From Hyphomicrobiales bacterium (lineage in GTDB: Bacteria > Pseudomonadota > Alphaproteobacteria > Rhizobiales > NORP267), in NCBI GenBank assembly GCA_021775855.1, contig JAJFGZ010000076.1, positions 1-64,000 of the forward strand: a DNA stretch of 64,000 bases, in the 5' to 3' direction. The position numbers and the translations under genes were made by a program. The notes under the pieces were generated by a model. The model was not told the origin of the DNA. It saw only the letters and a program-made list of their open reading frames with translations, and ran no database searches. Each line of letters opens with the position of its first letter. The stretch's first letter is position 1. Below are positions 18,850-20,945 of the stretch, piece after piece.

Positions 18850-20052
18850 CTAGGTTCCGGATTTGGCCACGTCCCCGTGGCCACTTCTGACAATAGCGCA
18901 TGCCTCCGACAACCGCTCCAGGGCCTGGTCGATTTCATCCTCCGACACCGTCAGGGGTGGCAGCAGACGGATCACATTCTCACCGGCGCCAACGACCAGA
19001 ATTTTGGCCTCGCGGCACGCCGCCATCATGTCGGGCACCTCGCACCGGCATTTGAGACCGAGGATTAGCCCCTCGCCGCGGACTTCTTCAAATATATCCG
19101 AATTTTCGTCGCACAGCCGGGCCAGTTTTTGGCGTAGCTTGATACCTTTTTCCCGAATGGCAGGCAAAAAGTCCGGCTCAAGTACAACATCCAGCACCGC
19201 ATTGGCGACGGCGGTTGCGAGCGGATTACCCCCATAGGTGGAGCCATGGGTGCCCTTGACCATGCACGCGCCGACCTCTTTGGTCGCTAGGCAGGCGCCG
19301 ACGGGAAAGCCGCCGCCGATGCCCTTCGCGATGGCCATAATGTCCGGCGTGATGCCGGCAAGTTCGTGGGCGAATAACTGACCTGTCCGGCCGACCCCGC
19401 ACTGGACCTCGTCGAGCACAATCAGAAGACCGTGCTCGTCAGCAAGCTTGCGCAATTTTCGCAGGAACGAGACCTCAAATACCCGGATCCCGCCCTCGCC
19501 CTGGATCGGCTCCAGCAGGAACCCCGCCGTTTCGTCATCGATGGCCGCTTCAGCGGCTTCCAGATCACCGAACGGTACCTGGGAAAACCCGGGGGTGCGC
19601 TCACCAAAGCCGTCGAGATAATTGTCGCGCCCGCCAGCTGAGATCGCAGCTAGGCTGCGACCGTGAAAGGCGCCTTCAAAGGTAATCAGCTTAAATTTTT
19701 CCGGGTGCCCGTTGACCGCGAAATATTTACGCGCGGTCTTGAACGCGCATTCCATGGCCTCGGTCCCGGAATTGGTGACGAAAACCAGATCGGCAAAGGT
19801 GACCTCGGTCAAACGGTCGGCGAGGCGTTCCTGACCCGGGATGCGGAACATGTTGGACGTGTGCCAGAGCTTGTCGGCCTGATCCTTGAGGGCCTCCACG
19901 AGGTGCGGGTGGTTGTGGCCGAGCGAACATACGGCGATGCCGGCGGCAAAATCCAGATAGGGTGTGCCGTCGCCGGTATACAGCCAGCTGCCGTCGCCGC
20001 GCTCGAACTCGATATCCGCGCGTGCGTAAGTGGGATAGAGGTGGGAATCCAT
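18850..20052 (-). CDS. argD: Acetylornithine aminotransferase
   Basis: PLP class III aminotransferase of arginine (and possibly lysine) synthesis, 400 residues. The substrate/PLP loop '[18 protein letters not shown]', '[18 protein letters not shown]' and the cofactor lysine in '[16 protein letters not shown]' are present. First gene of argD-argF-hslO. Its promoter should lie in the 365-base divergent region shared with gcrA. Confidence 0.95.
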
Positions 20053-20114
20053 ATTTCTACATTCGTTTTGAAATCAAAGCGCCGCCGAAATTTAGTTCCG
20101 GCGGCCTGGCGTGG

Positions 20115-20387
20115 GATTCTAGACCGATCAATGCGGGTGTCAATGACCCAGCCGCCCCGAATAACGTTACGTCATCTGACGATCACAAACAAAATTATGG
20201 AAAACCACTGTTTCTGGGGAAAATTCCCCTATTTCTCCTCCTAGACTCTTGCGGGAGAGTCATCCGGTATTGTAGAGTCTGAATTGTTCGCTACCAGATT
20301 TTGTAGTTTCATATCTGGCAACCCCAAGTGAGTGTATGCCGTGAGTATTCGCGGGACGAAGCTGTCCCGTGATCCGCTCTCGGATTC
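20115..20387. promoter_or_regulatory. argD/gcrA divergent region with five GANTC (CcrM-type) sites and a hairpin
   Basis: GANTC occurs at 20115 (GATTC), 20244 (GACTC), 20257 (GAGTC), 20275 (GAGTC) and 20383 (GATTC), three of them within 36 bases; about one per 256 bases is expected by chance. GANTC is the CcrM methylation site read by GcrA in alphaproteobacteria. The gcrA leader also has a 6-bp hairpin CGGGAC-GAAGCT-GTCCCG at 20352-20369. No clear CtrA box (TTAA-N7-TTAA) was found. Confidence 0.6.
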
Positions 20388-20417
20388 TGTCTGCAGCATA
20401 AGGATATGGAGACTGGA

Positions 20418-20945
20418 ATGAGTTGGACCGACGAAAGGGTTGAAACACTCAAGAAATTGTGGACCGAGGGCCTCACGGCACGTCAGATTGCCGAAATGAT
20501 GGGTGGCTTTACGCGCAATGCAATTATTGGCAAGGCGCACCGGTTGGGGTTATCTGGACGCCCGAAAACAGTCCGCGTGGCACGACCGAAACCCCGCAAA
20601 CCCCGCGTCAGCAACGGGCGCGGGCGGGGCGGCGGCTATGTTAGCATCGGCGCGACCGCGCTTAAAATGGACCCCGATGCGGATCCGATCGCGCGGCCGC
20701 AAGCAGCCCCCCTGCCGGTTGAAGATCTGGTGATCCCGATGGCAGAGCGGAAAACCATCCTCGAGTTGACCAGCGCCACTTGTCATTGGCCCTACAACGA
20801 CCCAAGGGACGAGAGTTTTCATTTTTGTGGGCGCGATGTCGAGGACGAAAAGCCCTATTGCGCCCATCATTGCCGGCTGGCCTACCAACCGCTCAACGAG
20901 CGGCGGCGGCAGAGGCGGGCGGCGCAGCGCCCACCCGGCCAATAG
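20418..20945 (+). CDS. gcrA: GcrA-family cell-cycle regulator
   Basis: Transcription factor that partners sigma70 and recognises GANTC-methylated promoters in alphaproteobacteria. 175 residues from the ATG at 20418 (MSWTDERVETLKKLWTEG), a fully canonical N-terminus; GGAGA lies upstream and inside the longer tracked ORF. The helix-turn-helix 'GLTARQIAEMMGGFTRNAIIGKAHRLGL' is followed by a basic linker and a C-terminal cysteine/histidine region (TCHWP, FCGRD, YCAHHCRLAYQP) typical of the sigma-interacting domain. Confidence 0.95.
   Translation: MSWTDERVETLKKLWTEGLTARQIAEMMGGFTRNAIIGKAHRLGLSGRPKTVRVARPKPRKPRVSNGRGRGGGYVSIGATALKMDPDADPIARPQAAPLPVEDLVIPMAERKTILELTSATCHWPYNDPRDESFHFCGRDVEDEKPYCAHHCRLAYQPLNERRRQRRAAQRPPGQ

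Follow-up and report, generated by a model that had tools for sequence, protein, structure and literature searches.

Two conserved GANTC sites at the predicted -35 element of the gcrA promoter in Hyphomicrobiales, and candidate NrdR-type boxes beside them

The gcrA promoter of Agrobacterium tumefaciens (PG) carries 6 GANTC sites per 250 bp, and methylation lowers its activity in E. coli as well as in A. tumefaciens itself (PMC11514494). In Caulobacter crescentus, GANTC sites at or between the -35 and -10 elements of GcrA/CcrM promoters are read via CcrM methylation, and a GANTC between -10 and -35 accompanies activation at 40-60 min (PMC4287350). The gcrA gene of Sinorhizobium meliloti is divergent from argD, has a CtrA motif over its start and carries a target for the small RNA EcpR1 (the complement of UCCGCCGCAUCU) in a leader of ~122 nt (PMC3616915, PMC4414408). 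A further system with features in common is the NrdR operator of ribonucleotide reductase promoters, in which two 14-16-bp palindromes (CACnAnATnTnGTG) lie over the promoter at 31-32 bp centre to centre, with 15-16 bp between the boxes (PMC12051234).

The locus described here lies in a 64-kb window (64,000 nucleotides, the whole stretch analysed) of a 3.14-Mb draft genome of the Hyphomicrobiales (G000), which was compared with two congeners (G001 and G002) and with a set of 61 relatives, mostly one per different family; since these sequences are related, the conservation counts given below are not counts of independent events. As in S. meliloti, gcrA (20418..20945, plus strand) is divergent from argD (18850-20052, minus strand). 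The first-pass annotation had named the downstream gene gcrA, and a PF07750 match (E = 1.2e-51) confirms this; the N-terminus was aligned with 11 orthologues, and the ATG at 20418 is the better start, an in-frame ATG being also present upstream at 20406. GANTC sites start at 20115, 20244, 20257, 20275 and 20383 in the intergenic region, with an additional sixth at 20045 inside the 5' end of argD. Thus, as previously claimed, there are five sites in 273 bases (20115-20387) and three in 36 bases (20244-20279), a density that recalls the A. tumefaciens promoter, where many GANTC likewise fill a short region before gcrA in a genome with CcrM.

We predict a gcrA promoter on the plus strand with a -35 hexamer TTGCGG (20249..20254) and a -10 hexamer TAGAGT (20273..20278), the latter within a conserved TATTGTAG. 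Alignment with relatives gives the core TTGCGS-N18-TANNNT with TATTGTAG at the -10, and TTG-N18-TANNNT is conserved among the aligned gcrA promoters. The predicted transcription start is at ~20285, i.e. -133, leaving a leader of ~133 nt, close in length to that of S. meliloti gcrA (~120-130 nt). Site 1 (GACTC, 20244..20248) abuts the upstream side of the -35 and is present in 19 of the 61 relatives (16 families), while site 2 (GAGTC, 20257..20261) lies at a constant position within the 18-bp spacer in 31 of the 61 (26 families) and is the best-conserved GANTC of the gcrA promoter. Site 3 (GAGTC, 20275..20279) overlaps the gcrA -10; both congeners read TAGAGTT there. The remaining downstream site (20383..20387) lies in the gcrA 5' leader, and the same site occurs in both congeners. 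At the other end, the GANTC at 20115..20119 overlaps the -10 of a strong divergent promoter predicted for argD (TTGACA-N16-TAGAATC, 20115..20143, minus strand, 11/12 consensus matches), the elements of which are also readable upstream of argD in G001 and G002; it therefore probably belongs to argD. Treating all five sites as a single gcrA element was accordingly rejected, with 20115 overlapping the argD -10 and 20275 private to this genome; the core of the cluster is the pair 20244/20257.

These two sites bracket the predicted -35, as GACTC-TTGNNNNN-GAGTC. The exact string GANTCTTGNNNNNGANTC occurs once in the full 3.14 Mb genome, and the generalized pattern GANTCTTGN5GANTC also has a single occurrence there, located at gcrA. 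Across G000-G060, 19 of the 47 occurrences of this pattern sit 147-242 bp upstream of gcrA. Among 108 distinct Hyphomicrobiales gcrA upstream regions, 65 contain the GANTC-TTG-N5-GANTC pair at a constant spacing of 13 bp; these 108 regions average 3.6 GANTC per 300 bp, and mononucleotide shuffles 1.1. In the zone of the leader site 20383, between -80 and -15 of gcrA, a GANTC was seen in 40 of 60 relatives, where 16% would be expected, and GANTC density peaks in the promoter (-200 to -160) and again in the late leader, dropping to 1-2/kb in the stretch that separates the two. A related Rhizobium and an Allorhizobium in the set have the same GACTC-N8-GAGTC pair. The report on A. tumefaciens (PMC11514494) stresses the number of sites, whereas the bracketing of the -35 and the order-wide conservation come from the present analysis; there the effect was measured and here it is predicted, and the private -10 site is additional here. 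The observation of several GANTC before gcrA in one species thereby becomes a defined order-wide element, namely two CcrM sites at fixed positions relative to the -35.

Could the cluster nonetheless be a product of chance, or of neutral accumulation in an AT-richer intergenic region? GANTC is ~2.6-fold rarer than expected in the 64-kb window (119 sites, against 310 predicted by dinucleotide shuffling). Genome-wide statistics were drawn from a 371-kb genome sample and one whole-genome pattern search. In the sample, GANTC occurs at 1.75 per kb in coding and 2.61 per kb in noncoding DNA, and at 14.2 per kb in the gcrA intergenic region, so that the comparison of intergenic densities suggested by the first-pass annotation places this region well above its genomic background. 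At the noncoding rate, 365 bp would hold 5 or more GANTC with a Poisson probability of 0.003, and three sites in 36 bp have no second instance within the 371-kb sample. Five sites in 273 bp are less exceptional, three further places in the 371 kb reaching the same density, and 20115 and 20275 are not conserved throughout the genus. Set against this, the pair shows order-wide conservation at fixed spacing and is unique in the genome, and GANTC density rises to two peaks; we regard chance as a very improbable account of the cluster; a neutral origin is disfavoured for 20244/20257 and possible for 20275.

The best reading of the cluster, and one that we hold to be fairly likely, is CcrM timing, in which gcrA has a methylation-sensitive promoter and is expressed in a pulse upon hemimethylation. 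This rests on the reported lowering of Agrobacterium gcrA promoter activity by methylation. The proposal of CcrM-timed expression made from the window alone gains support from the presence of CcrM, from two order-conserved sites that keep their position relative to the -35 and from the A. tumefaciens precedent (PMC11514494). CcrM is encoded by a gene beside rnhB as a 368-aa protein (PDB ID: 6pbd, E = 4e-162 over residues 15-363). PF18284 was discarded as a CcrM marker, being the wrong family, and identity was settled by PF01555 and the PDB comparison. The pattern of substitution at site 2 is as expected of a CcrM site, the free N varying while G, A, T and C stay: the centre base is other than G in 11 genomes, and a single-base loss at G, A, T or C occurs in one genome only (Fisher p = 4e-8, approximate for related sequences).

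A feature that speaks against CcrM timing is that the centre bases are more biased than CcrM requires: within the pairs, site 1 has C in 65/65 and site 2 has G in 61/65. The two arms are reverse complements, and GACTC-N8-GAGTC could be an inverted repeat bound by another protein, methylation being incidental or a means of tuning. We think this quite unlikely, as the repeat wraps the -35, where the polymerase itself binds, and families farther away retain GANTC at site 2 with T, C or A as its centre base.

Under CcrM timing, the core of the cluster is a gcrA promoter that is conserved and probably sensitive to CcrM, and that would work as follows. A predicted sigma-70 promoter would have its -35 bracketed by the CcrM sites 20244 and 20257, and full methylation around the -35 would weaken polymerase binding, leaving the fully methylated promoter weak in non-replicating cells. 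Passage of the replication fork would render both sites hemimethylated and relieve this weakening behind the fork, gcrA transcription would rise, and a GcrA pulse would follow in S phase, ended when CcrM shuts the promoter once more. The private -10 site at 20275 would strengthen the switch, and 20115 would place argD under the same methylation mark. Observed directly are the sites, with their constant placement and conservation, and a CcrM gene in this genome. By analogy with Agrobacterium, methylation would lower gcrA promoter activity here; it is further inferred that hemimethylation would time a GcrA pulse in this organism and that the methyl-adenine would act directly on RNA polymerase. 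The sign of the effect may differ, as a GANTC in the interval from -10 to -35 accompanies activation in Caulobacter (PMC4287350). Such a switch is not essential to gcrA, since site 2 is missing from half of the relatives and site 1 from two thirds.

The first-pass annotation had also put forward autoregulation, by which sigma-70-bound GcrA would recognize the methylated sites of the gcrA promoter and so activate or repress its own gene. Binding to methylated GANTC is known for the GcrA proteins of several Alphaproteobacteria (PMC3667746), and the sites lie within the -35/-10 region, where regulation of the CcrM/GcrA type is described. However, none of the six sites fits the Caulobacter GcrA motif YGAKTCK on either strand, so that a GcrA-driven loop of the Caulobacter type is not indicated; this is a weak test, given that no extended GcrA motif was seen in Brevundimonas (PMC7987155). 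Moreover, the methylation effect at the Agrobacterium promoter is seen in E. coli, which has no GcrA, and the papers covered by our partial literature search contain no report of gcrA autoregulation. We therefore consider autoregulation unlikely and the proposal unsupported. The same annotation had noted that no clear CtrA box was visible and that control may differ from the Caulobacter model. Both remarks hold: the gcrA upstream region contains no TTAA-N7-TTAAC, the best matches having 3 mismatches, and the nearest tested precedent is Agrobacterium, with repression by methylation rather than the GcrA-driven activation of C. crescentus, from which the present sites differ in fitting no YGAKTCK and having no CtrA box. 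The comparison with S. meliloti ends at the same point, as the window has neither the TTAA box nor TGCGGCGG.

Neither the conserved gcrA promoter nor a second set of elements, which resemble NrdR boxes, had been noticed in the first reading of the window. The palindrome yACnAnATnTnGTr sits just downstream of the -10 in gcrA promoters. In the window, box 2 (TACCAGATTTTGTA, 20292..20305) fits it at all defined positions; a degenerate box 1 (CATCCGGTATTGTA, 20261..20274) lies over the -10, 31 bp before box 2, with 3 mismatches over the pair, and a possible, weak box 3 (CCCAAGTGAGTGTA, 20323..20336) lies 31 bp after box 2. A search for tandem palindromes at 31-bp spacing in 31 genomes returned gcrA in 8/31 and nrdJ in 3/31. 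The gene nrdJ encodes the class II ribonucleotide reductase. We read the boxes as NrdR-type since those of gcrA share the shape and spacing of NrdR operators (PMC12051234); they differ from the boxes of ribonucleotide reductase genes in the gene that they precede, in often having G/C within the order where nrd boxes have A/T and, here, in the degeneracy of box 1.

A matrix trained solely on nrdJ promoters of the order (24/38 with clear boxes) assigned box pairs with 31-bp spacing to 29 of the 61 gcrA promoters at the 99% level of the null; 0.6 such promoters would be expected. The best pair in the gcrA promoter of this genome, which includes box 3, scores 16.4 (p = 0.002). Outside the order, the nrdJ-trained matrix detected boxes paired 31-32 bp apart in 23 of the 27 genomes (p < 0.05), and with E. 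coli nrdH, nrdD and nrdA it scored 29-33 at 31-bp spacing, compared with <7 for three control upstream regions. Scores of at least 15 were reached by 49% of gcrA promoters and by 0.5% of the 586 upstream regions of the genome sample, among which the gcrA upstream region ranks first. When the boxes were scored separately, the histogram of their spacing had a clear maximum at 31; raised single distances of 28, 29 and 33 probably arise where a strong box is paired with a weak one that is displaced. In two gcrA upstream regions from other orders (L175 and L180), more than two NrdR-type boxes stand in series, ~31 bp apart.

NrdR itself is encoded in the analysed genome (C63:50261-50701, TIGR00244, E = 6e-50) and in 57 of the 61 relatives, this genome included. 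A comparison across NrdR loss comprises three genomes only (G004, G013 and G047), of which G047 has congeners with NrdR and an nrdJ that keeps its boxes; the absence of NrdR from G047 may be an assembly gap. In the genus studied here, nrdJ has no NrdR boxes in any of the three genomes (L217, L235 and L238), despite retention of NrdR, and gcrA could thus be a main remaining NrdR target there.

A second input to gcrA, next to the methylation of its promoter, is probable from the sequence comparisons, namely repression by NrdR via the candidate boxes at the -10 and in the early leader. More broadly, we lean slightly towards the view that membership of gcrA in the NrdR regulon is ancestral in Alphaproteobacteria; with ATP and dATP bound, NrdR would occupy the paired boxes and repress gcrA, so that this master S-phase regulator would read the dNTP pool as well as fork passage. 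A literature search with partial coverage found no link between NrdR and gcrA, and gcrA is absent from the main text of a large study of NrdR regulons (PMC5343134); control of gcrA by NrdR as a sensor of dATP would be new. If the boxes are real, the opener of S-phase transcription would be tied directly to the dNTP sensor, giving a concrete hypothesis for the effect of dNTP levels on S-phase entry. This could bear on Caulobacter, where high dNTPs delay S phase independently of CtrA and DnaA (PMC12186491). A point of caution is that deletion of nrdR in Caulobacter gives more spreading on soft agar, which has been interpreted as a prolonged swarmer phase (PMC12186491); simple repression of gcrA by NrdR does not predict this spreading.

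The intergenic region holds several further elements. Upstream of the -35, an element picked out by eye (TGGGGAAAATTCCCC, 20215..20229) corresponds to TGGGGAAAA in the gcrA promoters of most relatives, and the copy in the window forms a perfect palindrome, GGGGAAAATTCCCC. A search of the gcrA upstream region for DnaA boxes gave only matches with 2 mismatches, the 20215..20229 element among them (7/9). In many relatives (L012, L062, L111 and others), TGCGGCGG, which is complementary to the EcpR1 sRNA loop UCCGCCGCA (PMC4414408), stands right after the NrdR-type palindrome, in the place of 20300-20330; it is absent from the window and from the congeners. The whole gcrA leader folds with z = -1.9, and an Rfam search covering the window region and seven relatives gave no match. 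Within the leader, 20349-20372 forms a strong hairpin (GCGGGAC...GTCCCGT) that is foldable in both congeners with a changed loop. On the minus strand, directly after the predicted argD start, a hairpin (GCCGCCGGAACTAAATTTCGGCGGC) is followed by the T-rich GCTTTGATTT (20081-20105), and a similar GGCGGC hairpin with a T-run precedes argD in most relatives; it is possibly a leader terminator or a 5' stabilizing hairpin.
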